Positions 47,287 to 64,000 of a stretch of 64,000 nucleotides of DNA are shown here, piece by piece. This DNA comes from Shinella pollutisoli. GTDB taxonomy: Bacteria > Pseudomonadota > Alphaproteobacteria > Rhizobiales > Rhizobiaceae. The DNA lies in assembly GCF_024609765.1 (NCBI RefSeq), contig NZ_JANFDG010000011.1, positions 62,001-126,000 of the forward strand, in the 5' to 3' direction. Both the position numbers and the translations under genes were made by a program. The first letter of the stretch is position 1. The number at the start of each line of letters is the position of its first letter. The notes below the pieces were generated by a model. That model saw nothing but the letters and a program-made list of their open reading frames with translations, ran no database searches and was not told the origin of the DNA.

Positions 47287-47433
47287 GCTCGCGCTGGATA
47301 GGCTGGGCGTGTCCGCTCATCGCAAGTGCCCGGTTCGCATGCGTTATCCGTGGCGGCGGCCCATTCCCGTCCCGTCGAAACCTTGACCGGGGTCCGGCGA
47401 CCGGATCCCGATCGGCATGGAGTTGCAAGCGAG

Positions 47434-48393
47434 GTGGAACAGGCAGATCTTTCGACGGAAGCCAGCGCCGACGTGCACCATCAGGCGACGCTGCTGCGGG
47501 CCTGGGACCAGAAGTACACGCAACTGCGGTCCGGCGGCTTCACGGGATCGGTCAGCACCCTGCGCAACGGCGGGGTGAAGCTGTTCCGCGAACAGATGAA
47601 CCGCGCGGTCTTCCAGATGGGCGCGCTGCCCGCCACGAAGCTCGGCTTCGGCCTGCCGGTGCGCGCCGCCGGGCGCAGCTACATCTGCGGCGAGGAGGGA
47701 AACGGGCACAGCCTGCTGGTGTTCTCCGGCCGCTCGGGCTTCGAGTTCCTCTCGCCCGACGATTTCGAGTTCTACGGCATCGAGATCGACACCTCGGCAT
47801 CGGCGTCCGACGATCCGGTGTTCCTCGCCATGGTGCGGACGCTGGAGGACGTGATCACCTCGTCGAGCCGGGCGATCCGGCTGGACGCGGCGCGGCTCGG
47901 CAAGCTCGGCCGCCTGCTGGGCGCGACGCTCAGCGAGGAGGGGATCGGCGACCGGCTGCAGACCTGGCCGGATCACGCGGCGGCCTTCAACCGCGGCCTC
48001 GTCGGCTGGATCCTCGACATGCTGCAGGCGGCCCCGCCCGAATCCGACAACCCGCCGATGCGCCACTGGGACACGATCACGGCGGTCCGCCAGCTGGTCT
48101 CCCAGTCGTCCTCCTGCCCCTCCTCGGTGGCCGAGCTGACGGTCGAGCTCGGCGTGTCGCGCCGCACGCTGCAGAACGCCTGCCAGGAGATCGTCGGCCT
48201 GAGCCCCGTGCAATACCTGCGGGCGCTGCGCCTCAGCGAGGCGCGCCGCATGATGGAGCAGTCGCGCTCGGTGACCGAGGTCGCAACGCAGTTCGGCTTC
48301 TGGCACCTCAGCTACTTCGCCCGCGACTATCACGCCATGTTCGGCGAATTGCCCTCCAAGACGCTGGAGCGGGTCAGGACCTGCCAGGCCTGA
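47434..48393 (+). CDS. AraC-family transcriptional regulator, EutR-like
   Basis: A 319-residue regulator with a C-terminal double helix-turn-helix (about residues 220-315: LTVELGVSRRTLQNACQEIV, then VTEVATQFGFWHLSYFARDY). The N-terminal domain (about 20-200) resembles that of EutR and related regulators rather than the classical AraC cupin. EutR senses ethanolamine with cobalamin, and this gene ends four bases from the terminus of an operon for a B12-dependent dehydratase, so a matching role is tempting. The start is uncertain: GTG 47434 is the best fit, but in-frame GTG codons exist at 47326 and about 47350. Confidence 0.75.
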   Translation: MEQADLSTEASADVHHQATLLRAWDQKYTQLRSGGFTGSVSTLRNGGVKLFREQMNRAVFQMGALPATKLGFGLPVRAAGRSYICGEEGNGHSLLVFSGRSGFEFLSPDDFEFYGIEIDTSASASDDPVFLAMVRTLEDVITSSSRAIRLDAARLGKLGRLLGATLSEEGIGDRLQTWPDHAAAFNRGLVGWILDMLQAAPPESDNPPMRHWDTITAVRQLVSQSSSCPSSVAELTVELGVSRRTLQNACQEIVGLSPVQYLRALRLSEARRMMEQSRSVTEVATQFGFWHLSYFARDYHAMFGELPSKTLERVRTCQA

Positions 48394-48396
48394 GGT

Positions 48397-49155
48397 TCAG
48401 AGGCATTCGCCGCCGTCGATCACCAGCGCATGGCCGGTCATGAAGCGCGAGGCGTCGGAGGCGAGGTAGAGGATCGCCTCGGCGATCTCGTCGACCGAGG
48501 CGAAGCGGCCCATCGGGATCGCGCCGGCGATGTAGTCCTCCAGCCTGTCGCGCCCGCCCATCTGCCGCTCGAAGCCCGCGTTGAAGGGCGTGTCGACGAA
48601 GCCGGGGCAGAGCGCGTTCACCCGGATGTTGTCGCGGGCGTAGTCCTTGGCCATCTGCCGCACCATGGCGACGGCGGCATGCTTGGTCGTCGCATAGGCG
48701 ATCATCTCCGCGTCGTACTGCACGCCGGAATTGGAGGCGGTGACGATGATCGAGCCGCCGCCCTGCGCGCGCATCTGCCCGACCACGGCGCGCGCCGCGA
48801 CGAAATGCGAGCGCACGTTCAGCACCCAGGAGGCGTCCATCTCATCGGGCGTCACCTGCTCCAGCCTCCCCTCGATCTGGATGCCGGCATGGGAATGCAG
48901 GACGTCGAGCCGGCCGTGCCGGGAGATCGTGCCCGCGAGCGCCGCCTCGACGGCGGGGGTGTCGGTCATGTCGAGCGCCAGCGCCTCGGCGCGGCCGCCC
49001 GCCGCGGCGATCTCGGCGGCCACCCTTTCGGCCGCCGCACCGTCGCGGTCGCTCACCGTCACCTGCGCGCCCTCCACCGCCATGGCGATCGCGCCGGCCC
49101 GGCCGATGCCGGAGCCCCCGCCGGTGACGAAGGCGATCCTGTCCCGAAGCCGCAT
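48397..49155 (-). CDS. Short-chain dehydrogenase/reductase
   Basis: A 252-residue classical SDR. Nucleotide motif FVTGGGSGIGRAGAIA is at about residue 9, the NNAG-equivalent reads HSHAGI, and catalytic Tyr-x3-Lys appears as YATTKHA with the Ser in ASNSG. The altered HSHAG and ASNSG are unusual but seen in the family. It is the last gene of the dehydratase operon, 13 bases after the small subunit. It may oxidise a hydroxyl of the substrate or reduce the aldehyde product. Confidence 0.88.
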   Translation of the reverse strand: MRLRDRIAFVTGGGSGIGRAGAIAMAVEGAQVTVSDRDGAAAERVAAEIAAAGGRAEALALDMTDTPAVEAALAGTISRHGRLDVLHSHAGIQIEGRLEQVTPDEMDASWVLNVRSHFVAARAVVGQMRAQGGGSIIVTASNSGVQYDAEMIAYATTKHAAVAMVRQMAKDYARDNIRVNALCPGFVDTPFNAGFERQMGGRDRLEDYIAGAIPMGRFASVDEIAEAILYLASDASRFMTGHALVIDGGECL

Positions 49156-49168
49156 ATACCGTTCCTCC

Positions 49169-49588
49169 TCAGTCCGACACGAGGCCGCGCCGGTGATAGA
49201 ATTCCGCCGCCGTCTCGATGAAACGCGCGATCTCCTCGGCGCCGTAGTCGCGCCGGAACAGCTCTGCCCGCTCCATGAGCGCCCGGCGGTCGCGCACGCG
49301 GCCCGGCCGCAGCATGTCGTAGGTCTCCATGATCAGGTCCTGCGGCACGGCGACGAGCTCGGCCCCGCGCTCGAAATTCTCCGCCAGCGTCGGGCGCCCG
49401 GCGGCCCGCGCGATCGCCGCCTGCGCCGCCAGCGCCTCGGCGGTGATGCGCAGGTCCTCGACCGTGACGTCGCCGGCGAGCACCGCCTCCATCGTCAGGT
49501 CGTCCAGCGCCTTGCCGCGGCCGCCGCGGATGCGGTCCGGCGCGGTCTCGGCGAGCGGATAGTCGGCAAGGGTGGGCTTTTCCGCCAT
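49169..49588 (-). CDS. Diol/glycerol dehydratase small (gamma) subunit
   Basis: A 139-residue protein matching the small subunit of coenzyme B12-dependent glycerol/diol dehydratases (DhaB3/PduE type). The start TLADYPLAETAPDRIRGGRG and the following LDDLTMEAVLAGDVTVEDLR are the family pattern, and the region ENFERGAELVAVPQDLIMET is also conserved. It has the short N-terminus of glycerol dehydratase, without the extension that targets PduE to microcompartments. Its ATG lies one base from the stop of the fused large/medium subunit gene. Together they form the dehydratase holoenzyme. Confidence 0.9.
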   Translation of the reverse strand: MAEKPTLADYPLAETAPDRIRGGRGKALDDLTMEAVLAGDVTVEDLRITAEALAAQAAIARAAGRPTLAENFERGAELVAVPQDLIMETYDMLRPGRVRDRRALMERAELFRRDYGAEEIARFIETAAEFYHRRGLVSD

Positions 49589-49589
49589 C

Positions 49590-51872
49590 TCAGGCCTTCT
49601 CCTTCTGCCCGAGGAACAGGATCTCGATCTCCTCGGGCGCACGATCGGGGACCGTGAGGCCCGTCTCGATGGCGTGGATCAGCGCCACCTGCGCGTGGTA
49701 GCGCGCGCCGAGCGCCTGGCCCTCGGTCGGCACCACCACCGGCTCGGGCGGCACGCCGCGCGCGAAGGAGGCGGCGTTGCGGCCGAGCTGCTCGTAATGG
49801 GCGAGCGTCGTGATCGGCGCGTTGGAGAAGAGCTCGAGATTGTTGTGGGGCATGCGGCCGCGGGCGTGGATCACCGCCGTGCCCTTGGCCTGGATGCCGA
49901 TGCCGTAGCCGGAGCCCGCCATCTGCGCGGCCGTCAGCCCGAGGAAGGACGTATCGGCCGTGTGGTGCATCCTGAGGATGCGCGGACGCGCGCCGCCGTC
50001 CTCGACGCCCCTGATGAGCGCGCGCAGCACGTCGGAGAGGTTGAGGCCGCCCGTCGTCTGGAAGAGCTGCAGGCCGAAGGCCGGGCTGATGCCGATCACC
50101 ACGTCGAGCGGGTCGGTCCCCTCCCCGGCGTCGCCCTTCGCCTCGTAGGTGATGCGCCGCGCCTCGGCCCGGCGGTGCATGGCCTGGGCCGCGAGCACCT
50201 CGCTCTGGCCGATCGTGTCGCGGATATCGCAGATCTCCTCGCGCCGCTCGTCCGAAAGCCGGTAGCCGCTGCCCGGGCCGGCATAGTCGTTCGGATCGTT
50301 GACGGCGCTGAGGATGCGGCCGCGGCGGACGATGGCCGAGGTCTGGAGATAGTCGCCCGAGACGCGCAGCTTGACGAGGCGCAGGAGGTTCTCCGCCTCC
50401 GGCGAAAAGCCCCGCCTGTGCAGCGCCCGGATGACGTCCAGCACGTCGATGCCGCGCGTCTGGATCGCCTCGCTGATCCTCGCCGTCTCGCCGGGCGAGA
50501 AGGTCGTGGTCTCGCGCGAGCCCGAGGCGACGACGACGCTCGCCTTCATCTGAGGCGTCGGCCGGGCGAGGTCGAGTTCCTCCAGCACGGCGGAGATCGC
50601 CTCGACGGCACGGATGCGCAGATCGAGCGCCTTCGTCTCCGGCAGCGGCGTCAGCCCGCCGTCGGCCTCGAAATCGCGCTGCAAGACGAGGAAGTCCTCC
50701 ATCTCCTCGCCGTTGAAGAGCGAGGGGTTGAAGGAGTTGTCGTATTTCAGGATCGAGCCGAAGCCGGAGCAGATGAGGTCGGAGCCGGCGATCAGATAGG
50801 GCAGGATCTTGGCGCCGACGCGGATCTCGGATTCGGTCGGGCGCGCGTCGTTGCCGCTCGCGCATTCGAGGTCGAGCCAGACGGCGAGCAGGTTCTCGGC
50901 CATGATCTCGCGCATACCGCCGGAAATGCTGGCGGTGACGGGCGCGCCGTCGATGCCGCCGTTCTGCGTGCCCTGCACGCCCATGCCGCGCTGCAGGCAG
51001 AGGCAGCGCGCCTCGAGATAGAGCAGCGACTTCGCCTCGTGATAGCCCATCAGCAGCTCCGCCCCGCCGCCCGAGGTGCAGCGCGCCTTGATGCCGCGCG
51101 AGGCATAGGCCGCGACCAGGAAGGCTTTGGACCAGGGCGTGTCGTCGCCGTCGACGAAGGTGCGCTCCGTGCCGTAGACGGAGACGGTCTCGGCATAGGA
51201 GGTGAAGCCGGCCATGCCGATCTTCAGCTCCTCCGCCTCCTCCGACGAGCACTGGAACAGCGTGCCCCAGTCGCCCACCGCCGAGCCGACGAGGCAGGCG
51301 ACGGCATTGGACCAGGCGTTGCGCGCGACCCGCATCGTCGTCTCCAGCTCGTCGAAGCCGAAGCCGACAGCCACGGCGGCATCCGCCGCAAGCTGCAACG
51401 GATCGTCCTTGGCATTGGTGACGTGCGCCTGGTTGCCCGGCGTCTTGCGCGGCCGCATCTTGGCATAGGCGAAGGCGATCTCCAGCGCGTTCAGCCGCGA
51501 GACCACGTCGGCGAGCTTGGCCGGCGTCATGCCGTGGGCGAGCCGCACCAGCGTCTCGCGCGGCACATGCATGTCGACGAGCATGCGCGCCACCTCGCCC
51601 GAATCCATCGCCATCGCCTCCGCGGCGACATCGGGGTCGAGATGGTATTCGGCGATGAAGGCGTCGATCAGGTCGAAGTCATGCGCCGGCACGCCGTCCA
51701 TGCTGACGACGCGGCCGGCCTCCGTCGCCAGCCCCGGCCGCGGATCGGCGGGGCTCGAGAAGGCAGCGAAACCGTTGGCGGGGTCCTCGCGCGCGAAGCG
51801 GTCGAGCCGGAGCGGGCGGTCGTCCCAGTCCGAGTAGCGGCGCCAGCGATTGGCCTGCGGGATCTGTTCCAT
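49590..51872 (-). CDS. B12-dependent diol/glycerol dehydratase, fused large and medium subunits
   Basis: A 760-residue fusion. Residues 1-560 form the alpha (TIM barrel) subunit and about 585-755 the beta subunit that binds adenosylcobalamin (LDVVIGISPAFGLQLFQTTG onward); in classical enzymes these are separate chains of about 555 and 195-225. All active-site residues known in the Klebsiella oxytoca enzyme align with a constant shift of seven: Gln148, His150, Glu177, Glu228, Gln303, Asp342 and Ser369. It should convert a 1,2-diol to an aldehyde plus water by radical rearrangement. No reactivase genes follow. The true substrate may be glycerol, propanediol or a substituted diol. Confidence 0.92.
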   Translation of the reverse strand: MEQIPQANRWRRYSDWDDRPLRLDRFAREDPANGFAAFSSPADPRPGLATEAGRVVSMDGVPAHDFDLIDAFIAEYHLDPDVAAEAMAMDSGEVARMLVDMHVPRETLVRLAHGMTPAKLADVVSRLNALEIAFAYAKMRPRKTPGNQAHVTNAKDDPLQLAADAAVAVGFGFDELETTMRVARNAWSNAVACLVGSAVGDWGTLFQCSSEEAEELKIGMAGFTSYAETVSVYGTERTFVDGDDTPWSKAFLVAAYASRGIKARCTSGGGAELLMGYHEAKSLLYLEARCLCLQRGMGVQGTQNGGIDGAPVTASISGGMREIMAENLLAVWLDLECASGNDARPTESEIRVGAKILPYLIAGSDLICSGFGSILKYDNSFNPSLFNGEEMEDFLVLQRDFEADGGLTPLPETKALDLRIRAVEAISAVLEELDLARPTPQMKASVVVASGSRETTTFSPGETARISEAIQTRGIDVLDVIRALHRRGFSPEAENLLRLVKLRVSGDYLQTSAIVRRGRILSAVNDPNDYAGPGSGYRLSDERREEICDIRDTIGQSEVLAAQAMHRRAEARRITYEAKGDAGEGTDPLDVVIGISPAFGLQLFQTTGGLNLSDVLRALIRGVEDGGARPRILRMHHTADTSFLGLTAAQMAGSGYGIGIQAKGTAVIHARGRMPHNNLELFSNAPITTLAHYEQLGRNAASFARGVPPEPVVVPTEGQALGARYHAQVALIHAIETGLTVPDRAPEEIEILFLGQKEKA

Positions 51873-51895
51873 GGCGCATCCTCCCTGGGCCGCCG

Positions 51896-52669
51896 TCAGG
51901 CCATCGCGTCGAGCGATTCCGGCACGACTTGGCCGCCGTCGACGACGATCTGCTGGGCGGTGATGTAGCCCGCCTCGTCGGAGGCGAGGAACAGCACCGC
52001 GTTGGCGATGTCGTCAACCGTGCCGAGCCGGCCGAGCGGCACCGAGGCCTCCATCGCCGCGAGGTATTCCGGGCCGTTGCCCTCGAAGCCCTCGGTGATG
52101 ATGTTGCCGGGCAGGACGGCGTTGATCGTCACCTGGTCCTTGGCGAGCTCCATCGCCGCCGAGCGCATGAAGCCGAGCTGGGCGGCCTTCGAGGCGCCGT
52201 AATGGGTCCAGCCGCGATAGCCGGTGATCGGCCCGGTGATCGAGGAGGTGAGGATCACCCGCCCGCCGCCGGCGCGGCGGAAATGCGGCTGCGCGGCCTT
52301 CACCGCCAGGAAGGAGGAGCGCAGGTTCACCGCCATCACGTTGTCCCATTCGGCGGGGTCCATCGCCTCCATGGTCGTCTGCGGGTAGATGCCGGCATTG
52401 GCGCAGAGGATCGAGAGGCCGCCCTGCGCCTCCGCCGCCTCGTCCACCATGGCGCGGACCTGGTCCCAGTCGGCGACGTCGCAGGTCGCCGTGCGCACCG
52501 TGCCGCCGGCCGCGGCGATCTCCGCGCGCGCCTCCTCAAGTGCGGCGCCGCCGCGCGCGACCAGCGTGACCTTTGCCCCTTGTGCGGCGAGCGTGCGGGC
52601 GATGCCGCGTCCGATCCCCTTCGACGCGCCGGTGACGATGGCGCTGCGGCCGGTGAGCCTGGTGAGCAT
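51896..52669 (-). CDS. Short-chain dehydrogenase/reductase
   Basis: A 257-residue classical SDR. Cofactor motif IVTGASKGIGRGIARTLA starts at about residue 10, CANAGIY replaces NNAG, the catalytic Ser is in TSSITGP and the Tyr-x3-Lys in HYGASKA. The C-terminal ASDEAGYITAQQIVVDGG is standard. It lies 23 bases before the dehydratase gene and after the iron alcohol dehydrogenase gene, so it probably works on the same substrate series. Confidence 0.9.
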   Translation of the reverse strand: MLTRLTGRSAIVTGASKGIGRGIARTLAAQGAKVTLVARGGAALEEARAEIAAAGGTVRTATCDVADWDQVRAMVDEAAEAQGGLSILCANAGIYPQTTMEAMDPAEWDNVMAVNLRSSFLAVKAAQPHFRRAGGGRVILTSSITGPITGYRGWTHYGASKAAQLGFMRSAAMELAKDQVTINAVLPGNIITEGFEGNGPEYLAAMEASVPLGRLGTVDDIANAVLFLASDEAGYITAQQIVVDGGQVVPESLDAMA

Positions 52670-52697
52670 GGCAGTCCCTCCCTTGTTTCGAAACGGA

Positions 52698-53870
52698 TCA
52701 GGAAATCACGAGATCCCCTTCGACGGCGGCGATGAAGAGACGGCGGAAATCCTCCGCCGTCATCTTGCGCGGATTGGCCCCGGTCGAGGGGTCGGCGAGC
52801 GCCTTGACGGCGATCTCGTCGGCATCGGCGGTGGTGACGCCGAGATCCGCCAGCGTATGCGGGATGCCGAGTTCCCTGCGGAAAGCAAGAAGCCAGTCGA
52901 GGAAGCCGTCGAAGCCGCCGTCGATCTCCAGCATGTGGGCGACGATGCCGACCTTCCTCTCGATTACCGGCCGGTTGAAGGCGACGACATAGGGCAGGAT
53001 CACGCCGTTGGCGAGGCCGTGCTGGATGTCGTAGAGCGCGCCGAGCGGATGGGCGAGCGAATGCACCGCACCCAGCCCCTTCTGGAAGGCGACGCCGCCC
53101 ATCATCGCCGCGGCGAACATGTAGGTGCGCGCCTCGACGTTGCGGCCGTCCCTGACCGCGCGCGGCAGCCAGTCGCGGATGAGCCGCATGCTTTCGAGCG
53201 CGATGCCGTCGGCCATCGGGTGGAAGCTTTCCACGCAATAGGTCTCGAAGCTGTGGGTGAAGGCGTCCATGCCGGTCGCGGCCGTCAGGGCCGGCGGCAG
53301 GCCGGTCGCAAGCTCCGGGTCGCCGATGACGAGCGCCGGCAGCATCTTCGGATGGAAGATGATCTTCTTGGTGTGGTCGGTGGTGTTGGTGAGCACCGCC
53401 GCGCGCCCCACCTCCGAGCCGGTGCCGGCCGTGGTCGGCACGGCGAGGATCGGGTGGATCGCATCCGCGTTGGCACGCGTCCACCAGTCGCCGATGTCCT
53501 CCAGGTCCCAGACCGGGACGGTCTGGCCCTCCATCAGCGCCACGAGCTTGCCGACGTCCATGGCCGAGCCGCCGCCGATGACGATCACGCCGTCATGGTT
53601 GCCGGCGCGGAAGGCCGCAATGCCGGCGGTAAGGTTGGTGTCGGTCGGGTTGCCCTGCACCTCGGAGAACAGCGCGGCCTGAAGGCCGGCGGCGCGCAGC
53701 CGTTCCACCGCCGCGGCGATCATCGGCAGGCCGGCGAGCCCCTTGTCGGTGACGACGAGCGGGCGCTTGAGGCCGATGGCGGCGGCGTGCCTGGGCAGGT
53801 CGGCCGCCTTGCCGGCGCCGACATGGATCGTCGTCGGGTAGGTCCAGCGGGCGGAGAGGTCGTAGGTCAT
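52698..53870 (-). CDS. Iron-containing alcohol dehydrogenase
   Basis: A 390-residue group III metal-dependent alcohol dehydrogenase, like 1,3-propanediol dehydrogenase (DhaT) and FucO. Metal ligands Asp202, His206, His270 and His284 keep the FucO spacing; GGGSAMDVGK (about 99-108) binds the cofactor. It would reduce the aldehyde formed by the dehydratase, or oxidise an alcohol, with NAD(H). Neighbouring genes on both sides are within 30 bases, so it is part of the same operon. Confidence 0.9.
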   Translation of the reverse strand: MTYDLSARWTYPTTIHVGAGKAADLPRHAAAIGLKRPLVVTDKGLAGLPMIAAAVERLRAAGLQAALFSEVQGNPTDTNLTAGIAAFRAGNHDGVIVIGGGSAMDVGKLVALMEGQTVPVWDLEDIGDWWTRANADAIHPILAVPTTAGTGSEVGRAAVLTNTTDHTKKIIFHPKMLPALVIGDPELATGLPPALTAATGMDAFTHSFETYCVESFHPMADGIALESMRLIRDWLPRAVRDGRNVEARTYMFAAAMMGGVAFQKGLGAVHSLAHPLGALYDIQHGLANGVILPYVVAFNRPVIERKVGIVAHMLEIDGGFDGFLDWLLAFRRELGIPHTLADLGVTTADADEIAVKALADPSTGANPRKMTAEDFRRLFIAAVEGDLVIS

Positions 53871-53886
53871 GGCGTGTTTCCGGCGT

Positions 53887-55224
53887 TCAGATCATTTCGA
53901 AATAGCGATGCAGTTCCCAGTCCGAGACGGTGGCGCGCTGGGCGGCGACCTCGGCCTCGCGGCTCCTGGCGAAATGCTCGACGAAGGCGTCGCCGAACCA
54001 TTCGCGCGCCATGTCCGACCTGCGCAGCCGCGCCGCGGCCTCGGCGAGCGAATCGGGAAAGCGCAGGGCCTCGGGCAGGTCGGCGTCGTAACCGTTGCCC
54101 TTGAAGGGCGGGCCGGGATCGATCTTCTCGCAGATGCCGGCAAGCCCCGAGGCAAGCGCTGCGGCCAGGACGAGATAGGGATTGGCGTCGGCCGCCGGCG
54201 GGCGGACCTCGACGCGCAGCGACTTCTCGCTGTCGCCGATCACGCGCAGCGAGCAGGTGCGGTTGTCGAGGCCCCAGGTCGCCCCGGTCGGCGCCCAGAA
54301 GCCGGGCGCAAGCCGCGTGAAGGCGTTGATCGTCGGCGCGTAGAGGGCGAGGAGCTCGGCCATGTACTTCCGCTGCCCGCCGATATAGTGGCGCGCCGTC
54401 TCCGACAGGCCGTGCTCGGCGGCGGGGTCGTGGAAGGCGGAGCGGCCGTCCTTCCACAGCGACAGGTGGGTGTGGCCGCCGCAGCCGGGCAGGCCGTTGA
54501 TGGGCTTGGCCATGTAGCAGAGCGTCAGCCCGTTGCGCTGGCCCCAGGCCTTGGAGAAGGTCTTGTAGATCACCGCGCGGTCGGCCGCCTCCATCGCGTC
54601 GGCGGGCGTGAAGGCGAATTCCATCGCCCCCTCCCCCGCTTCCGGATGGATCGCCTCCAGCGGCGTGCCGAGATCGCGGGCGAGCGCCATCATGCCGGAG
54701 AAGAACTCGTCCTCGACGGCGGTGCGCAGGATCGAATAGCCGCCGGTGGTGGGCGAGAAGGGCGTGAGGTTGCGGTAGCCCTTGGCAAGCGCGGTGGTCG
54801 GCGTCTCGCGGAAGACGTAGAACTCGTATTCGAAGCCGGCCTTGGCGGCAAAACCCATCTCCGCCGCCTTCTCGACGACGCGCCCGGCGAGCCGGCGCGG
54901 GCAGACCGCGGCCCCCGGCCCGTCGGCATATTCCATCAGGTGGAAGCGCCGGCCCTCGCCGGGCATCATGCGGCCCTCGCCGGGAACGATGCGGATCGGG
55001 TCATCGTGATAGCCGGTCGCCCAGCCGGTGTGGCCGTTGTCGTAGAGCGCGTCGCGGGAATCCCAGCCGAGCACGACCGAGCAGAAGGCGCCGCCCTTCT
55101 TCTGCCAGGCGGCGAACTTCTCGGCGGTGGCGTATTTTCCCCGGACGACGCCGTCGAGGTCGACATAGCCGATCAGGACGAAATCCTCGGCCGTTGCCCG
55201 GGATGTGTCAGCAAGCGATTGCAT
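53887..55224 (-). CDS. Glutamine synthetase-like enzyme, probably gamma-glutamyl ligase type
   Basis: A 445-residue protein of the glutamine synthetase fold, in the PuuA/GlnA-like branch that ligates glutamate to amines. The beta-grasp start has IGYVDLDGVVRGK. Catalytic domain motifs are metal ligands in GFEYEFYVF, IHPEAGEGAMEFAF, the GCGGHTHLSLW strand, GLDNRTCSLRVIG and RVEVRPPAADANPYLVLAA. The adenylylation-tyrosine region of GlnA is absent. It is sandwiched between importer and dehydratase genes, so it probably activates or protects an amine group of the imported compound; ammonia assimilation is the alternative. Confidence 0.85.
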   Translation of the reverse strand: MQSLADTSRATAEDFVLIGYVDLDGVVRGKYATAEKFAAWQKKGGAFCSVVLGWDSRDALYDNGHTGWATGYHDDPIRIVPGEGRMMPGEGRRFHLMEYADGPGAAVCPRRLAGRVVEKAAEMGFAAKAGFEYEFYVFRETPTTALAKGYRNLTPFSPTTGGYSILRTAVEDEFFSGMMALARDLGTPLEAIHPEAGEGAMEFAFTPADAMEAADRAVIYKTFSKAWGQRNGLTLCYMAKPINGLPGCGGHTHLSLWKDGRSAFHDPAAEHGLSETARHYIGGQRKYMAELLALYAPTINAFTRLAPGFWAPTGATWGLDNRTCSLRVIGDSEKSLRVEVRPPAADANPYLVLAAALASGLAGICEKIDPGPPFKGNGYDADLPEALRFPDSLAEAAARLRRSDMAREWFGDAFVEHFARSREAEVAAQRATVSDWELHRYFEMI

Positions 55225-55251
55225 CTTTGTCCTCTGTCCAAAACGTCCGGG

Positions 55252-55959
55252 TCAAGCGCCGAGGTAGGCGCGGGCCACTTCGGGATCGCTGAGCAGGCGG
55301 TCGGACGGGCCTTCGAGGGCGATCGAACCCGTCTCCAGCACGTAGCCGTGGTCGGCCAGGTGCAGGGCGAGGTTGGCGTTCTGCTCGACCAGCACGATCG
55401 AGAGCCCGGCCTTGCGCAGCTCCACGATCAGCGCGGCGATCTCGTCGATCATCTTCGGCGAGAGGCCGAGCGAGGGCTCGTCCATCAGCAGCACCTTGGG
55501 CCGCGCCATCAGCGCCCGGCCGATCGCCACCATCTGCTGCTGGCCGCCGGAGAGCTTGCCGGAAGGCTGGTGCTGCTTCTCGCGCAGGATGGGGAAGCGG
55601 TCGAAGACCTCCTCGATGCCGTCGGCGACGCGCCGGGAATCGCGGTCGAGATAGGCGCCGAGCCTGAGGTTCTCGCGCACCGTCATCAGCTTGAACAGCC
55701 GCCGGCCCTCCGGCACGTTGACGATGCCCATCTCGACGACGCGGTTCGGCGGCTGGCCGTCGATGCGCCGGCCCTCGTAGAGCACCTCGCCGCCGCTCGG
55801 CCTGACGAGGCCGGAGATCGCCTTGAGGATCGAGCTCTTGCCGGCGCCGTTGGCACCGATCAGCGTGATGATCTGGCCCTGCCTGAGCGACAGCGAGACG
55901 CCCTTGACGGCCTCGACCTTGCCGTAGTGGACACGCAGGTTCTTCACTTCAAGCAACAT
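55252..55959 (-). CDS. livF: Branched-chain-type ABC transporter ATP-binding protein (LivF)
   Basis: A 235-residue ATPase of the LivF type. Walker A GANGAGKSS, signature LSGGQQQMVAIGRAL, Walker B VLLMDEPSLGLSP are clear. The ATG at 55959 gives the usual LivF start LLEVKNLRVHYG and overlaps the livG stop by 11 bases. It pairs with LivG to drive import. Confidence 0.92.
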   Translation of the reverse strand: MLLEVKNLRVHYGKVEAVKGVSLSLRQGQIITLIGANGAGKSSILKAISGLVRPSGGEVLYEGRRIDGQPPNRVVEMGIVNVPEGRRLFKLMTVRENLRLGAYLDRDSRRVADGIEEVFDRFPILREKQHQPSGKLSGGQQQMVAIGRALMARPKVLLMDEPSLGLSPKMIDEIAALIVELRKAGLSIVLVEQNANLALHLADHGYVLETGSIALEGPSDRLLSDPEVARAYLGA

Positions 55960-56719
55960 GGGCCTGGCTCCCCAGATAGGCTTCGCGGACTTCGGGATTG
56001 GCACGCACCTCCTCGGGTGTGCCGTCCGCGATGTTGTTGCCGAAGTTCAAGACGGTGATGCGGTCGCAAAGGCCCATCACCACCTTCATGTCGTGCTCGA
56101 TCAGCATGATGGTGATGCCGGTGTCGCGGATGCGGCGCACGAGCGCGATCATCTCGCGCGATTCGTCGTTGTTCATGCCCGCGCAGGGCTCGTCGAGCAG
56201 CAGCATGCGCGGCTCGGCGGCGAGCGCGATGGCGATGCCCAGCATCTTCTGGTGGCCGTGCGCCAGCGTCGCGGCCTGCTGGTGGGCGATGTGGCCGAGG
56301 CCGATGAAATCGAGGATCTCGCGGGCGCGCCGCTCGGAGCCGGCCTCCGCCTCGCGGGTCTTGCGGGTGCGCAAAAGCGAACCCCAGTAGCTGTGCTGCG
56401 CATGCAGGTAGTTGCCGGCCATGACGTTCTTCAGCACCGAGAACTTCTTGAACAGCGTCACGTGCTGGAAGGTGCGCACCAGGCCCTGGGCGGCGATCTC
56501 GTGCGGCTTCAGCCCGCTGATCGTGTGGCCGCGGTAGCGGATCTCGCCGGCGGTGATCGGATAGCGCCCCGAGCAGGCGTTGAAGAAGGTGGTCTTGCCG
56601 GCGCCGTTCGGCCCGATCAGGCCGCGGATCTCGCCCTCCTCGACGACGAGGTCGAGGCCGGCGATGGCGGTGACGCCGCCGAACTTCATCTGGAGATTTC
56701 TGGCTTCGAGTTCGTACAT
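55949..56719 (-). CDS. livG: Branched-chain-type ABC transporter ATP-binding protein (LivG)
   Basis: A 256-residue ATPase with the LivG pattern: LQMKFGGVTAIAGLDL start, Walker A GPNGAGKTT, VRTFQHVTLFKKFSVLKNVM, Walker B MLLLDEPCAGMNNDE and the C-terminal GTPEEVRANPEVREAYLG. The signature is degenerate: it reads ATLAHGHQKMLGIAIALA instead of LSGGQ, a known feature of some LivG proteins but more altered here. Confidence 0.92.
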   Translation of the reverse strand: MYELEARNLQMKFGGVTAIAGLDLVVEEGEIRGLIGPNGAGKTTFFNACSGRYPITAGEIRYRGHTISGLKPHEIAAQGLVRTFQHVTLFKKFSVLKNVMAGNYLHAQHSYWGSLLRTRKTREAEAGSERRAREILDFIGLGHIAHQQAATLAHGHQKMLGIAIALAAEPRMLLLDEPCAGMNNDESREMIALVRRIRDTGITIMLIEHDMKVVMGLCDRITVLNFGNNIADGTPEEVRANPEVREAYLGSQAHVA

Positions 56720-56728
56720 GCCGTTGCC

Positions 56729-57727
56729 TCACCTGCCCGAGGTGCGTTGGAAGAGTTTGCGCAGCCGGCCCGGAACCGTCTCCAGTCCGCCCGGCAGCAG
56801 GAGCACCGAGGCGATCAGCACCACGCCGAAGAAGATGGTGCGGAAATAGCCGGTGGCGCGCAGGAGCTCGTCGACGATGGTGAGCGAGATCGCGCCCGCG
56901 ACCGGGCCGCCCACCGTCGTCAGCCCGCCGACGATCAGATGGACCAGCGCGAATTCCGATTTCCAGATGTCGAAGGTCTTGGGGCTGATATAGGTCTGGT
57001 AATGGGCGTAGAGCGCGCCGGTGATGCCGACCAGCGTGCAGGCGATGGTGAAGCAGATCACCTTGTGGCGGAACACGTTGATGCCGGTATGCTGGGCGAG
57101 CAGCTCGTTCTCGTGGATCGACCAGTAGATCATGCCCGTGCGCGAGGAGTTCACGCGGTGGATCACCCATACGGTCGCCGTCACGGCGAACAGCGCCAGA
57201 TAGTAGTAGGCGACGCGGTTGGCGAAATCGATCTGCAGGAAGCCGAGGTCGAGGACCGGCGGCTTGATGTCGAAGACGCCGTCCCAGCCGCCGAAGAAAT
57301 CCTTGAAATAGGCGAAGTTGCGCTTGATCACCTCGCCGACGGCCCAGCTCGCCATGAAGAAGTAGACCGCGCGCGTGCGCATCAGCGGGATGGAGATCGC
57401 AAGCGCGATCGCCCCGGAGATGAACGCGCCGATCCACAGCCCGTACCACATCGACAGGCCGAGCTTGGTCAGCACCAGCGCCGAGGCATAGGCGCCGATG
57501 CCCATGAAGCCGGCATGGGCGAAGGAGATCACGCCGAGCGTCCAGATCAGCCAGAGGCTGGCGGCCAGCGACACGTTGAAGGTGATGATGATGCCGACGT
57601 GGATGAGGTAGAGGTCGAAGTTCACGAGGAAGGGTACGACCAGCGCCACGGCCAGCAGCGCCAGCCAGGCAATCCTGTGAGGTCGGTCAAGGTCTTCCAT
57701 TTTTCTATCCCGCAAGTCTGTTGTCAT
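56729..57727 (-). CDS. livM: Branched-chain-type ABC transporter permease (LivM)
   Basis: A 332-residue inner membrane permease with about nine hydrophobic helices and the LivM segments WLIWTLGVISFAHAGFMGIG and HLIVGGLTTVGGPVAGAISL. An internal start at 57700 (MEDLDRP) has a comparable ribosome site. It forms the channel with LivH. Confidence 0.9.
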   Translation of the reverse strand: MTTDLRDRKMEDLDRPHRIAWLALLAVALVVPFLVNFDLYLIHVGIIITFNVSLAASLWLIWTLGVISFAHAGFMGIGAYASALVLTKLGLSMWYGLWIGAFISGAIALAISIPLMRTRAVYFFMASWAVGEVIKRNFAYFKDFFGGWDGVFDIKPPVLDLGFLQIDFANRVAYYYLALFAVTATVWVIHRVNSSRTGMIYWSIHENELLAQHTGINVFRHKVICFTIACTLVGITGALYAHYQTYISPKTFDIWKSEFALVHLIVGGLTTVGGPVAGAISLTIVDELLRATGYFRTIFFGVVLIASVLLLPGGLETVPGRLRKLFQRTSGR

Positions 57728-57770
57728 GCCGCCCTGCCGTCATGCCGCCGGGCGGCGCGGAGAGGGGCGC

Positions 57771-58634
57771 TCAGTCCCAGTTCTGGCCGAACAGGCCGGA
57801 CGGCCGGAACACCAGGATCAGGAAGATCACCACGAAGGAGAGGATGAGGGCGATGTCGCCGCTGATGGTGGTCGTCACCACGCTGTCGATCATGCCGAGG
57901 ATCATGCCGCCGACCAGCGCGCCGACGACCGAGCCGAGCCCGCCCATGATGACGATCATGAAGGCCTTGATGGTCGCCAGGAAGCCCATCGTCGGGACGA
58001 TCGACAGCAGCGTGCCCATCATGCAGCCGGCGATCGCCGCCATGGCGGAGCCGAGGCCGAAGGCGATCCAGTGGATGCGCCCGGTCCGGATGCCCTGCAG
58101 CGCCGCCGTGTCCGGGTCCTCGGCGACCGCCCGGATCGCAAGCCCCGTCACCGAGCGGCGCAGGAACAGCCAGAGCGCCACGATCAGCGCGATCGATACG
58201 GCCGAGATCACCATGCGCTCGTAGGAGAGATAGGCGCCGCCGAGCAGCACGCCGCCCGAGACCGCGCTCGGGATGCCCTTGGTGGTGGTGCCGAAGATGA
58301 GCTGGCCGGAGCCGGAGATGATCAGCACCAGGCCGAGCGAGACGGCGAGCGAATAGAGGATGTTCTTGCCGTGCAGCGGCTTGAACAGCACCATCTGCAG
58401 CACCGCGCCGAGGCCGAAGATCACGACGGCGCTGACGGCGACGCCCGCCCAGTAGGGCAGCCCCATCTCGGCATGCCAGTAGTAGAGCACGAAGGCGCCC
58501 AGCATGAACATCTCGCCGTGCGCGTACTGGATGATGCGCATCACCCCGAAGATCAGGGTGAGGCCGATGGCGATCAGGGCGTACATCAGGCCGAGGCTGA
58601 CCCCGGTCAGGCCCATCTGTAGGAAGTCACTCAT
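57771..58634 (-). CDS. livH: Branched-chain-type ABC transporter permease (LivH)
   Basis: A 287-residue permease with about eight hydrophobic helices and the LivH landmarks GVSLGLMYALIAIGLTLIFG and ...VIMGGLGSVVGALVGGMILG. A perfect 15-base stem-loop (58674-58708) separates it from the binding protein gene. Confidence 0.92.
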   Translation of the reverse strand: MSDFLQMGLTGVSLGLMYALIAIGLTLIFGVMRIIQYAHGEMFMLGAFVLYYWHAEMGLPYWAGVAVSAVVIFGLGAVLQMVLFKPLHGKNILYSLAVSLGLVLIISGSGQLIFGTTTKGIPSAVSGGVLLGGAYLSYERMVISAVSIALIVALWLFLRRSVTGLAIRAVAEDPDTAALQGIRTGRIHWIAFGLGSAMAAIAGCMMGTLLSIVPTMGFLATIKAFMIVIMGGLGSVVGALVGGMILGMIDSVVTTTISGDIALILSFVVIFLILVFRPSGLFGQNWD

Positions 58635-58673
58635 GCGCGAAAGGCTCCAGGATCGCAGGGACGTCCGGGCCGC

Positions 58674-58708
58674 CGCCGCCCCGCCCGGAGAGCCCGGGCG
58701 GGGCGGCG
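58674..58708 (-). terminator. Strong stem-loop between binding protein and permease genes
   Basis: CGCCGCCCCGCCCGG (58674-58688) pairs perfectly with CCGGGCGGGGCGGCG (58694-58708) around a five-base loop. There is no U-run, so it probably protects the upstream message or attenuates expression of the membrane genes. Confidence 0.65.
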
Positions 58709-58735
58709 CGACCGTTCAGGTCCGGTTGCGCGAGA

Positions 58736-59962
58736 TCAGTAGTCCGCCGGCAGCGCCGGGAAACGCACGTCCTCGACCTTGGCCACGCCCTTGTCGATGG
58801 TGGTGGTGAAGCAGTCGTAGACGCCCTGGCGGTCGACGCCGAAAGAGTTCTTGCCCGCCCACTTGACCTTGCCGACATAGGTGTCCTCAAGCTCGACGGC
58901 GGCCAGCGCCTCGGCCACCTTCCTGGTGTCCTCCGCCGTGCCGGCCGCTTCCCAGGCCGCCTTCAGCGAGTAGATCCACCAGGAATAGTTGCCGGCGAGC
59001 GCATTGAAGGAGCCGAACCGCTCCATGAAGCGCTTCTCGATGGCCTTCTGGGTGTCCGTCGACGGCTCGACGTTCGTCACCGGCAGGATGACGCCGTCGG
59101 CATGCTCGCCGGCCACCTCGAGGATGGTCTTGGTCTCGGAGGCCGCGGGCGAGGAGATCGGGCCGGTATAGCCGAGCTCGCGCGCCGCCTTGATGATCGA
59201 GGCGGTGATGCCGGGCGGGGACGGGCTCGTGACGATGAAGTCCGGCCGGTCGGCGATCGTCTTGGCGACGATCGGATAGAAGTCCGTGTCCTCCCAGTTG
59301 TAGAACTCGGCCGCCTTCTGGGTGATGCCGTAATAGTCCATCAGCCGCTTGTAGGAGAAGTGGCAGTCGGTGCCGTCCTGGTCGTTCGGGCCGATGAAGG
59401 CCGCCGTCTTCAGCGCGTCCTTGCCGTACTTCTCCTGCATGAAGGGGATGTAGGCGAAGCCCTGCTCGTAGTCCGACATCTCGGCGCGGAAATGCAAGGG
59501 GTAGTCCTTGCCGAACAGGTCCAGATAGCCCCAGCAGGCAACGATCGACAGGACGCCGGCCGGCTCCGTCACCTGCAGCATGCCGACGTTCGAGGCGGCC
59601 GCCTGGCTGAAGACGTACTTGCACTGGTCCTGCTCGACGAGGCGCATCGTCGCCGCGCGCGAGTCGGCCACCTCGCCCTTGGTGTCGTAGCTGATCACCT
59701 CGAGCATGTGCGGCTCGCCGCCGATCATCACGCCGCCCGCCTCGTTGATCACCGCCGCGCCGTCGATGAAGCCCTGCGCCGTCGAATGGCCCCAGTAGGC
59801 GACCGGTCCCGACAGCGGCACCGCGCCGCCGATCTTGATCGTCTTGGCCTGCTGCGAGAAGGCGCTCCGCGGCAGGATCGCAGGCGCCGCGAGAGCCGCC
59901 GCCCCCGTCACCAGCAGCCGGCGACGCGTCACAAACAACGAACCCGTTTCCTTTTTCATCAT
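58736..59962 (-). CDS. ABC transporter substrate-binding protein, branched-chain/urea type, Tat signal
   Basis: A 408-residue periplasmic binding protein of the LivJ/UrtA/AmiC-like family (Peripla_BP_6). It begins with a twin-arginine signal (TRRRLLVTGAAALAAPAILP) cleaved near FSQQ. The mature part starts IKIGGAVPLSGPVAYWGHST. Ligand could be an amide, polyol or amino compound; leucine is unlikely in this catabolic context. The first gene of the operon; either of two adjacent ATG codons (59962 or 59959) could serve, the second having better spacing from GGGAG. Confidence 0.88.
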   Translation of the reverse strand: MMKKETGSLFVTRRRLLVTGAAALAAPAILPRSAFSQQAKTIKIGGAVPLSGPVAYWGHSTAQGFIDGAAVINEAGGVMIGGEPHMLEVISYDTKGEVADSRAATMRLVEQDQCKYVFSQAAASNVGMLQVTEPAGVLSIVACWGYLDLFGKDYPLHFRAEMSDYEQGFAYIPFMQEKYGKDALKTAAFIGPNDQDGTDCHFSYKRLMDYYGITQKAAEFYNWEDTDFYPIVAKTIADRPDFIVTSPSPPGITASIIKAARELGYTGPISSPAASETKTILEVAGEHADGVILPVTNVEPSTDTQKAIEKRFMERFGSFNALAGNYSWWIYSLKAAWEAAGTAEDTRKVAEALAAVELEDTYVGKVKWAGKNSFGVDRQGVYDCFTTTIDKGVAKVEDVRFPALPADY

Positions 59963-60845: not shown

Positions 60846-62273
60846 TCAGTCGCCGTAGCCGACCACGCTCTTGATCTCGAGGAAATCGTGGATGCCGAAA
60901 TCGGCATATTCGCGCCCGTTGCCCGACTGCTTGTAGCCGCCGAAGGACGCCATCGTGTCCCAGGCCGGATAGTTGAGGTAGACCGACCCGGCGCGCATGC
61001 GCGACGCAACCCGGCGCGCGCGCTCGATGTCCCGCGACTGAACGTAGGCGGCAAGGCCGTAGACGGTGTCGTTGGCGATGCGGATCGCGTCCTCCTCGTC
61101 CTCGTAGGACAGGATGGAAAGCACAGGTCCGAAGATTTCCTCGCGGGCGATCGTCATGTCGGAAGTGACGTTTCCGAACACGGTCGGACGGACGTAGTAG
61201 CCGCGGTTGAGGCCGTCGGGCCGGCCGGGACCGCCCGTGACGAGCGTCGCGCCTTCGCTGATGCCGGCCTCGATCAGGCGCTGGATCTTGTCGAACTGGA
61301 TCTGGCTGACGACGGGGCCGAGATCGGTGTCCTCCGCGTTCGGATCGCCCGTGCGGAACGCCTCGGCTGCGGTTTTCGAGATGGCCAGCGCCTCTTCATG
61401 GCGCCCCTTCGGAACCAGCATGCGCGTGGGGGCATCGCAGGACTGCCCCGAATTGCCGAAGCAGCCGTGGACGCCCTTCGTCACCGCAGTCTCGAAATCG
61501 GCGTCGGGAAGGATGATGTTCGCCGACTTGCCGCCGAGCTCCTGCGCGACGCGCTTGACCGTGTCGGCCGCAGCCTTGGCGACGATGATGCCCGCCCGGG
61601 TGGATCCGGTGAAGGACACCATGTCGACGTCGGGATGCGACGCCATGACCTGCCCGACATCGGGGCCGGTGCCGTTGACGAGATTGAACACGCCCTTCGG
61701 CACGCCCGCCGCATGCATGATTTCCGCAAAGACGATGCCCGAGATCGGTGCGATTTCCGAAGGCTTGAGCACGACGGTGCAGCCGGCGGCGATCGCCGGG
61801 GCGACCTTGCAGACGATCTGGTTGAGAGGCCAGTTCCACGGCGTGATCAGGGCGCAGACCCCGACCGGTTCCTTGACGATCATCGTCGTGCCGCGCTTTT
61901 CGCTGAACGTGTAGTCTTCGAAGGCCTTTATCGTGGATTCGAGATGGCCCCGTCCCGCCCAGGCCTGCGCATCGCGCGCGAAGGCGAGCGGCGCGCCCAT
62001 CTCCGCGGAAACGGCCTGCGCAATATCCTCGAAACGCTCCAGGTAAACGCCGTGGATCCGCTTCAGGAGCGCGAGCCGCTCGGCGGCAGCCGTCCGCGAG
62101 AAGGTCTCGAAGGCGGCCTTCGCCGCAGCGACGGCCTTGTCCACGTCGGCCGCGGAGCCGACCGAAATCCGCGTGAACGCCTCCTCCGTGGCCGGATTGA
62201 TGACGTCGAGCGTCCGGGGCGTGACGGGCGAAACCCACGCACCGTTGATGTAGAAGTTCTCGTGATTGCTCAT
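60846..62273 (-). CDS. NAD-dependent aldehyde dehydrogenase
   Basis: A 475-residue ALDH with catalytic Cys279 in NSGQSCDAPTR and Glu245 in QELGGKSANI; PWNWP and GSTRAG are present. It groups with the broad-substrate ALDHs near betaine-aldehyde and 3-succinoylsemialdehyde-type enzymes. It follows, 45 bases downstream, an FAD dehydrogenase subunit, and probably oxidises an aldehyde released by that enzyme. Confidence 0.88.
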   Translation of the reverse strand: MSNHENFYINGAWVSPVTPRTLDVINPATEEAFTRISVGSAADVDKAVAAAKAAFETFSRTAAAERLALLKRIHGVYLERFEDIAQAVSAEMGAPLAFARDAQAWAGRGHLESTIKAFEDYTFSEKRGTTMIVKEPVGVCALITPWNWPLNQIVCKVAPAIAAGCTVVLKPSEIAPISGIVFAEIMHAAGVPKGVFNLVNGTGPDVGQVMASHPDVDMVSFTGSTRAGIIVAKAAADTVKRVAQELGGKSANIILPDADFETAVTKGVHGCFGNSGQSCDAPTRMLVPKGRHEEALAISKTAAEAFRTGDPNAEDTDLGPVVSQIQFDKIQRLIEAGISEGATLVTGGPGRPDGLNRGYYVRPTVFGNVTSDMTIAREEIFGPVLSILSYEDEEDAIRIANDTVYGLAAYVQSRDIERARRVASRMRAGSVYLNYPAWDTMASFGGYKQSGNGREYADFGIHDFLEIKSVVGYGD

Positions 62274-62318
62274 CGGAGCTGTCCTTTCTGGCTATATGTC
62301 AGGGTTTCGTTCGCGGCA

Positions 62319-63473: not shown

Positions 63474-64000
63474 CGGTCGGGCTCCACGAGCGCGGCAAGG
63501 CCTGCCGCCTGCGCCACCGTTATCGAGCGCCGGGGAGGCCGATGGGTGGGGCGGGCGAACGCCTCCGGCTCGACGCCGATGCGGGCGGCGAGCAGCGCCA
63601 GCATGTGCTCCCAGCAGGGGAAGCCCTGGCACGTTCCCATGCCGCAGGAGGTCAGGCGCTTCAGCACCTCGGGGTCCGTCTCGCCCTCGTCGATGTGGCA
63701 GTAGAGCTCGCCGGCCGTCACATCCATGCAGGGGCAGATCAGGGTGCCGGGATGAACGTGCCTGCGGGCATGAATGCGCTCGTCGCCGAGCGCCGCCGCC
63801 CCGATGATAGACATCGTCTCCGGAAGCGGGCGCGCGAGCACCTGGAACATCCCCTCGCCCGAGGCCTGGAAGCCGAGGCTCGGATCGATCCGCCACGGTC
63901 CGGCATGGACGACGGCGTCGCATCGGATCTCCGTGCCGGTGCGAATGGCCGTCACCCGGCTGCGTCCCCTGATCTCCACGAGCTCCTCGATCGGCCCGCG
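63470..64000 (-). CDS. Opine/HcnB-type dehydrogenase alpha subunit, C-terminal part (gene cut by window edge)
   Basis: The reading frame continues without a stop to base 64000, so only the C-terminal part is seen (about 175 residues). It includes the end of an FAD/NAD-binding region (CDAVVHAGPWRIDPSLGFQA) and a [2Fe-2S] BFD-like domain with cysteines in ICPCMDVT and CGMGTCQGFPC. This is the arrangement of the alpha subunits OoxA/NoxA and HcnB. It is coupled to the beta subunit at 62319 by a four-base overlap. The start lies outside this window. Confidence 0.8.
   Translation of the reverse strand, partial: RGPIEELVEIRGRSRVTAIRTGTEIRCDAVVHAGPWRIDPSLGFQASGEGMFQVLARPLPETMSIIGAAALGDERIHARRHVHPGTLICPCMDVTAGELYCHIDEGETDPEVLKRLTSCGMGTCQGFPCWEHMLALLAARIGVEPEAFARPTHRPPRRSITVAQAAGLAALVEPDR

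Follow-up and report, generated by a model that had tools for sequence, protein, structure and literature searches.

Which compound is served by an operon that joins a Liv-type importer, a glutamine-synthetase-like ligase and a fused B12-dependent diol dehydratase? The question is raised by a stretch of 64,000 nucleotides from Shinella pollutisoli (contig NZ_JANFDG010000011.1, positions 62,001 to 126,000; hereafter the window), in which such an operon of eleven genes runs from position 59962 to 48397 on the minus strand. Judging from the sequence, we see about an even chance that a small cationic vicinal diol, e.g., 3-amino-1,2-propanediol or an N-substituted form of it, is taken up and broken down by means of this operon. 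An earlier note on this DNA had proposed an amino-diol or amine-bearing polyol as the imported compound; Asp301 in the dehydratase pocket, an aminoalcohol-type short-chain dehydrogenase (SDR1) and a ligase without its ammonia site favor this proposal.

Operon organization and conservation

The eleven-gene operon is real. Reading frames and Pfam matches, and for LivM gene order and similarity, confirmed the shared strand, the gene order and the small gaps or overlaps that the earlier note had described, and no gap exceeds 101 bp. In the importer part the binding protein and LivH genes are 101 bp apart, LivH and LivM 43 bp, and LivM and LivG 9 bp, with LivG and LivF overlapping. The gaps are 27 bp from LivF to the ligase gene (GlnA), 16 bp from there to the iron alcohol dehydrogenase, 28 bp to SDR1, 23 bp to the dehydratase, 1 bp to its gamma subunit and 13 bp to a second short-chain dehydrogenase (SDR2). 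A consensus scan of the coding strand found no terminator-like site within the operon, and the promoter scan was uninformative (2 sites against 0.8 expected).

The same eleven genes stand in the same order in Pseudogemmobacter bohemicus (L071) and Paracoccus sp. IB05 (L080), at 67–91% identity per gene, so the arrangement is not due to chance. A Rhizobiaceae metagenome-assembled genome (MAG; L096) holds ten of the genes, the ligase being absent, and a Rhodobacteraceae MAG contig (L072) begins in the ligase tail (33 residues) and lacks SDR1. The exact gene order, whose conservation the earlier note had proposed as a check, thus recurs whole in two genomes but is not a general unit. In the species-level collection, where the search detects close relatives only, 4 of the 27 named dehydratase loci share the window arrangement wholly or partly; several other loci do not extend far enough to tell. 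The eleven-gene set was rejected as a widespread unit, with Liv genes in 4 and GlnA in 3 of 51 distinct dehydratase loci.

A fused dehydratase with a changed pocket

The dehydratase (49590–51872, minus strand) is a single frame of 760 residues, in which Dehydratase_LU (E 2.4e-206) is followed by Dehydratase_MU (E 8.5e-22). The gamma subunit (49169–49588, minus strand; Dehydratase_SU, E 3.5e-40) comes after it, with a corrected ATG start at 49588, one base past the dehydratase stop. Large, medium and small subunit domains (PF02286/PF02288/PF02287) are therefore all present, and the fusion of alpha and beta that the earlier note had read from the sequence holds. Against the NCBIfam propanediol/glycerol dehydratase model, the large subunit scored 821 bits (cut-off 788). 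Relatives were found in 32 of 397 genomes at the order level (E <=1e-50), 26 of them, the window's genome included, at >=66% identity; at E <=1e-100, the family yielded them in 6 of 199 genomes and the class in 8 of 385.

We aligned the fused enzymes on the Klebsiella oxytoca plasmid enzyme, whose numbering is one above that of the classical diol dehydratase. The 56 rows, which exclude the reference rows and L044 (not reaching the sites), were reduced to 51 at 99% identity; the short loci L066, L067 and L070 were not in this alignment. The catalytic and metal sites, part of which are listed in PMC7674605, are intact: Q141, H143, E170, E221, Q296, D335, S362 and F374 are kept in all 51 distinct sequences, that of the window among them. 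The substrate side is different. Position 301 is Asp (Ser in the references) and 302 is Gly (for C302) in 51 of 51; position 337, Thr in classical enzymes, is Arg in 49 and Lys in 2; position 336, classically Gln, is Ala in 44, Thr in 5, Ser in 1 and Cys in 1. The window enzyme has Asp308 (codon 50949–50951, minus strand) in place of Ser301 and Ala343-Arg344 (codons 50841–50846, minus strand) in place of Gln336-Thr337, so that the classical pair S301/Q336 was not found in it. All six reference dehydratases keep S301 and C302, and two of them (L040, L111) have A336.

These residues bear on the reading that this is an operon for aerobic use of glycerol or 1,2-propanediol, with 3-hydroxypropanal or propanal formed by the dehydratase and then reduced by the iron alcohol dehydrogenase, and with a ligase that simply deals with some amine. 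The family models do name a propanediol/glycerol dehydratase over the cut-off, none of the catalytic residues tested is lost, and among the relatives of the iron alcohol dehydrogenase is 1,3-propanediol oxidoreductase (231 bits), the classical partner. According to PMC7674605, glycerol binds to the Klebsiella enzyme in two conformations, in one of which its C3 hydroxyl is opposite Ser301; the table of that paper shows that S301A/Q336A retains most of the efficiency on glycerol (0.08 vs 0.14) but loses nearly all of it on 1,2-propanediol (0.04 vs 5.1). On the other side, S301 and C302 are each replaced by one fixed residue, T337 by a basic one and Q336 is lost throughout the 51 sequences, a kinase, an aminotransferase or an aminoalcohol-type SDR often adjoins, and the reactivase on which classical glycerol dehydratases depend is absent. 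We regard the glycerol or propanediol operon as unlikely. For the cationic diol that we prefer, an acidic residue 301 with more room at 336 would suit a positively charged substituent at C3.

The reactivase (DDR) was found in none of 33 genomes with this fused dehydratase, the window's genome included, and in all five genomes with an unfused enzyme. Two genomes with partial matches (G437, G744) are excluded from the count, and in five of the 33 (G619, G746, G843, G882, G919; 68–71% identical) D301 was not aligned. The reactivase was likewise missing from three of three genomes with a more distant fused enzyme, two of which show S301. Against the earlier note's statement that diol dehydratases usually sit with reactivase genes, absence is the rule among the fused enzymes covered here. 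As far as its text was accessible, PMC4777399 describes fusion together with an absent reactivase in Mesorhizobium, Mycobacterium and Hyphomicrobium, with a slightly different active site in the fused enzymes. Since the reactivase is hypothesised to swap the beta subunit (PMC7674605, accessible text), and a fused beta domain cannot be swapped, the fusion probably goes with life without a reactivase. Adenosylcobalamin supply is represented in the window's genome by CobA/CobO.

A third dehydratase type (L040, L111 and G729) is fused in a single frame, 43–44% identical, and occurs in genomes without a reactivase; the L040 and L111 enzymes keep S301 and have A336.

An aminoalcohol-type dehydrogenase

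SDR1 (51896–52669, minus strand; Pfam) is best matched as an enzyme of the aminoalcohol-dehydrogenase type. Its closest PDB relatives are 6ci9/6ci8 at 275 bits, ahead of 3pk0 (266) and 3rih (251), after which the scores drop to 160. The PDB title of 6ci9/6ci8 is 3-oxoacyl-ACP reductase; we take this protein to be the S-1-amino-2-propanol dehydrogenase of the Mycobacterium smegmatis RMM microcompartment, in which the amine is presumably held by T145 and E251, and the methyl group surrounded by F95, W154 and L195. All 38 rows of SDR1 relatives (33 without same-genome duplicates) share T145, W154 and E251. At positions 95 and 195 the window SDR1 has Tyr and Phe (Phe and Leu in 6ci9/6ci8); F195 is limited to Liv-type operons, and Y95 is found in every Liv-type operon having SDR1 and in four other distinct relatives.

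Many relatives of the operon carry a kinase that points to the same system, matching 6ef6 at 290 bits (next match 51), which we assume to be the kinase of the same M. smegmatis microcompartment. This kinase gave no match in the window's genome, in a search that lacked a positive control, and no APH kinase lies beside the operon in the four relatives.

A ligase without its ammonia site

We aligned the ligase (53887–55224, minus strand; Gln-synt_C) on E. coli GlnA. It keeps the metal residues and R321, R359, R339 and R344, whereas the ammonia-site residues D50, S53, Y179 and E327 are C, G, G and W; the glutamate-site residue N264 is P, and A in E. coli PuuA. All four ammonia-site residues are kept in E. 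coli GlnA and in L128 of the same genome. This genome has ten Gln-synt_C genes, of which seven, the window's included, could be aligned (L130, L133 and L135 were dropped for want of a frame at the match), and L128 is the only one of the seven with a full ammonia site. In the accessible text of PMC6529630, D50 deprotonates ammonium and the E327 flap closes the site. An ordinary glutamine synthetase was rejected, given the lost ammonia site; with the metal, glutamate and ATP residues kept save N264, the sequence fits the earlier note's gamma-glutamyl-ligase-like enzyme, and the protein is probably a gamma-glutamyl amine ligase.

The same genome has another locus (L131, contig C4) with genes, named from the starts of their proteins, for an RpiR regulator, an N-formylglutamate-amidohydrolase-like protein, a TRAP transporter, a glutamine-synthetase-like protein and an aldehyde dehydrogenase, which resembles the Phaeobacter ethanolamine operon in the accessible part of PMC10132767. 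Because this separate ethanolamine-type locus has its own ligase, 33% identical to that of the window, we rejected the window ligase as the genome's ethanolamine ligase; its identity to E. coli PuuA is 24%.

A ligase relative was found in 34 plasmid records. In the five viewed (41–51% identical), the neighbours include an aldehyde dehydrogenase (3), an amidotransferase or gamma-glutamyl hydrolase (2), a Pot-type importer (3) and an iron alcohol dehydrogenase (1), and in none is there an annotated dehydratase nearby. These neighbourhoods would favor a composite island, in which a dehydratase–SDR module and an unrelated amine-ligase module share one transcript and serve two separate substrates, as would the L096 operon without the ligase and the L072 operon without SDR1. 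The position of the ligase between the importer and dehydratase genes in the window, L071 and L080, with window gaps of no more than 27 bp on either side, argues against such an island, which we consider improbable.

We give about the same low credence to a further reading, in which the dehydratase acts as a lyase that removes the amine from 1-amino-2-propanol or an N-hydroxyalkyl amine, yielding an aldehyde and ammonia or an amine, and the ligase traps the amine. SDR1 and its neighbourhood do point to 1-amino-2-propanol chemistry, glutamine-synthetase-like ligases for ethanolamine are known (PMC10132767 and PMC6529630, in their accessible parts), and the best full-length match of the adjoining regulator is EutR, below cut-off. 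However, the tested residues that hold both oxygens are all kept, which fits a diol, and the substitutions are found toward C3, away from the migrating group.

Dehydratase neighbourhoods, shell genes and descent

We counted the neighbours of the dehydratase in the 51 distinct loci, within 10 kb where the locus permits (11 of the 51 are <14 kb), with the window included and with identity thresholds of our own setting. SDR1 is the most frequent (33 loci), followed by an isochorismatase-family hydrolase (29), a PotD-type binding protein (24), an APH kinase (22) and another AraC regulator (22). SDR2 (>=48% identity) adjoins in 14 loci, a class III aminotransferase in 12 and an APC permease in 10, while the iron alcohol dehydrogenase (6), each Liv gene (4) and GlnA (3, plus a tail in a fourth operon) are rarer. 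An APH kinase or class III aminotransferase is thus near the dehydratase in 23 of 51 loci. Pfam scans of chosen neighbour proteins gave APH, isochorismatase, EutN_CcmL, BMC, Aldedh, Aminotran_3 and AA_permease domains; one further shell-like protein had no Pfam match, and its CcmP match was below cut-off. Two plasmids, of Shinella and Agrobacterium cucumeris, carry the dehydratase together with genes for a sugar-type importer, a phosphotransferase and a protein annotated as an aminotransferase. No gene of the shell, kinase, class III aminotransferase or isochorismatase type was found beside the Liv-type operons, which have the Liv importer, the iron alcohol dehydrogenase and the ligase (the last in four of five) instead.

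Of the 33 genomes that hold this dehydratase, 23 have the microcompartment shell domain BMC (PF00936). Sixteen of these have a shell gene on the dehydratase contig, no more than 15 kb away; the remaining seven have it on another contig. In a maximum-likelihood tree of 55 dehydratases (group labels are ours; L036, L074 and L085 are labelled Pot or APC with the importer unseen), the five Liv-type enzymes form one group (100/100) within a starred group of 44 rows that also holds Pot- and APC-type loci. Among the sequences nearest to them, at forks of moderate support, are L045 and L047, whose loci bear shell genes. The window type is one shell-less branch, and its ancestry suggests that the module derives from RMM-like clusters of the kind found with this dehydratase in other genomes.

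The window's genome has a second fused dehydratase, 65% identical (C3:21882-24107; L003 9861-12122), with D301, T336 and R337. Beside it are Liv genes, aldehyde and alcohol dehydrogenase genes, a Pot-type importer, LysR- and MerR-type regulators, two SDRs and a dimethylglycine-dehydrogenase-like protein.

In six loci (L061 12308-13042, L076, L081, L084, L089 and L095), genes of one cluster lie between the dehydratase and PotD genes. In L061 this gene encodes a glutamine amidotransferase of class I (GATase), although a search of the six loci for the window's ligase found no relative. The L097 dehydratase, from a contig labelled candidate division KSB1, groups among alphaproteobacterial ones, and the contig is perhaps mis-binned.

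Importer, remaining enzymes, regulator and flanking genes

The importer begins with a periplasmic binding protein of the HAAT/Liv type (58736–59962, minus strand; Peripla_BP_6, E 6.3e-43), 88–90% identical in three relatives, whose twin-arginine motif (TRRRLLVTG) fits the Tat export that the earlier note had read. Its best PDB match, a Leu/Ile/Val-binding protein, reaches only 49 bits, and its ligand therefore cannot be read off. LivH (57771–58634; BPD_transp_2, E 2.1e-38), LivM (56729–57727; named from order and similarity, 82–84% identity in three relatives, with no Pfam scan), LivG (55949–56719; ABC_tran and BCA_ABC_TP_C) and LivF (55252–55959; Pfam match and relatives) follow on the same strand, LivF with a corrected start that is probably at 55959, within livG. 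The iron-type alcohol dehydrogenase (52698–53870, minus strand; Pfam) has methanol dehydrogenase, 1,3-propanediol oxidoreductase and lactaldehyde reductase as PDB relatives, and 4-hydroxybutyrate dehydrogenase as its best NCBIfam model (339.5 bits, below the cut-off of 500). SDR2 (48397–49155, minus strand; Pfam) ends the operon.

Convergent with the operon is an AraC-type regulator gene (47326–48393, plus strand), which the earlier note's gene list lacked. It scored 124.7 bits against the EutR NCBIfam model, below the cut-off of 319, so that an assignment to the EutR type was not obtained. A copy (54–68% identical) adjoins the operon in three of the four relatives (L071, L096 and L072), and none was found beside that of L080.

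Upstream of the operon, on the minus strand at 60846–63979, are betaine-aldehyde-dehydrogenase-like, sarcosine-oxidase-beta-like and BFD-type ferredoxin-like genes, which suggests another amine pathway beside it. The aldehyde dehydrogenase at 60846–62273 was rejected as an operon member, since 883 bp and an opposite-strand frame intervene; it had no match in L071, L080 or L096, where 2–3 kb upstream of the operon is covered.

Discussion

These results suggest a pathway in which the Liv transporter would import an amine-bearing diol and the B12 dehydratase, binding the ammonium at the C3 side of the substrate with Asp308 (position 301 in the K. oxytoca enzyme), would convert it to an amino-aldehyde, 3-aminopropanal in the example given. 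SDR1, SDR2 and the iron alcohol dehydrogenase may interconvert amino-alcohol, carbonyl and alcohol forms, and the ligase would mask the amine as a gamma-glutamyl amide. The gene products are read from the sequence, and the substrate, step order and redox directions are inferred.

Several observations weigh against this pathway. The small change of S301A/Q336A on glycerol means that altered residues 301 and 336 do not by themselves exclude glycerol, and a pairing of D301 with R/K337 might leave a neutral pocket. The roles that we give to the 6ci9 residues are presumptive. The absence of the ligase from L096 and of SDR1 from L072 means that neither is indispensable, or that they have side-branch roles. 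Neither kinase nor aminotransferase is present in 28 of the 51 loci, and neither SDR, at the threshold used, in 11, of which 7 are <14 kb; the isochorismatase-type hydrolase of 29 loci (e.g., L045 7729-8424, a cysteine hydrolase) has no role in the scheme. Liv-type binding proteins take many ligands, and a close solved relative is lacking here. The BMC domain is absent from 10 of the 33 genomes, those of the window and L096 (G507) included, and the deep nesting of the Liv group in the tree rests on forks of 92–94/83–87, below the star limit.

Among known systems, the RMM2 (aminoacetone, 1-amino-2-propanol) loci are close, sharing a 1-amino-2-propanol-dehydrogenase-type SDR and diol dehydratase homologues in the accessible parts of PMC4207490 and PMC6620236, and many relatives of the operon share their kinase, class III aminotransferase, permease or shell genes. 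The use of the dehydratase in RMM2 is left open in the accessible text of PMC4207490 (disuse or two functions). In contrast, genes with a BMC domain are absent from the window's genome, a search there for the kinase of the relatives, run without a control of its own, found no match, and the operon adds the Liv-type importer, the iron alcohol dehydrogenase and the ligase, with SDR1 differing at residues 95 and 195. A plasmid search found no actinobacterial RMM2 dehydratase among the best 60 of 93 records. RMM-like clusters occur in some Proteobacteria (PMC6620236, accessible text), and alphaproteobacterial ones may already be catalogued in the supplement of PMC8217296.

The fused glycerol dehydratases of Mesorhizobium, Mycobacterium and Hyphomicrobium share the alpha-beta fusion, the gamma subunit and the lack of a reactivase, but are placed in the dha (glycerol) regulon in the accessible text of PMC4777399, which cites Liu et al., while here pocket residues are named and the neighbours are amino-alcohol genes. 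Klebsiella-type PduCDE/DhaB have the same domains and catalytic residues, and differ from the window enzymes in the fusion, S301D, C302G, the loss of Q336, T337R/K and the missing reactivase. The gamma-glutamyl pathways (PuuA, GlnA4 and the Phaeobacter ethanolamine operon) share a glutamine-synthetase-like ligase without ammonia-site residues, and in Phaeobacter an alcohol dehydrogenase gene lies near the ligase, as in the window. Unlike these pathways, the window operon has no aldehyde dehydrogenase or amidohydrolase, and unlike the Phaeobacter operon it has no TRAP transporter or RpiR regulator.

Fused B12 dehydratases without a reactivase are already described, as glycerol dehydratases, in the accessible part of PMC4777399. 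What is new is the shared D301/G302/R-K337 pocket, the amino-alcohol SDR and neighbours, the shell association, the shell-less branch and the ligase without its ammonia site. The earlier note knew of no described pathway with this gene set; the eleven-gene set is indeed undescribed among the matches listed in the open-access literature, with most subscription papers outside that scope, but the RMM2 loci come close (PMC4207490, accessible text). Among these matches, no paper other than PMC4207490, for RMM2, links the fused enzymes with amino-alcohol genes. Among the best 12 of 165 papers, none has both diol dehydratase and tri- or diethanolamine, and nothing bearing on triethanolamine, choline-like or betaine-lipid substrates came up.

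A broader and speculative proposal, which we think has a modest chance of being right, is that the fused enzymes form a separate class of B12 dehydratases for cationic amino-diols, mistaken for glycerol dehydratases and often housed in microcompartments, and that in the window's lineage a gamma-glutamyl tag replaces the shell in masking the amino-aldehyde. If true, enzymes annotated as glycerol dehydratases would have another substrate, and the RMM2 pairing of diol dehydratase and amino-alcohol genes (PMC4207490, accessible text) would be explained by one testable pathway for an amine-bearing diol. Because they lack a reactivase, the fused dehydratases are of interest for dehydratase engineering. 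The use of a shell or of a gamma-glutamyl tag in sister operons would, if the proposal is true, serve as a natural experiment on the purpose of microcompartments.

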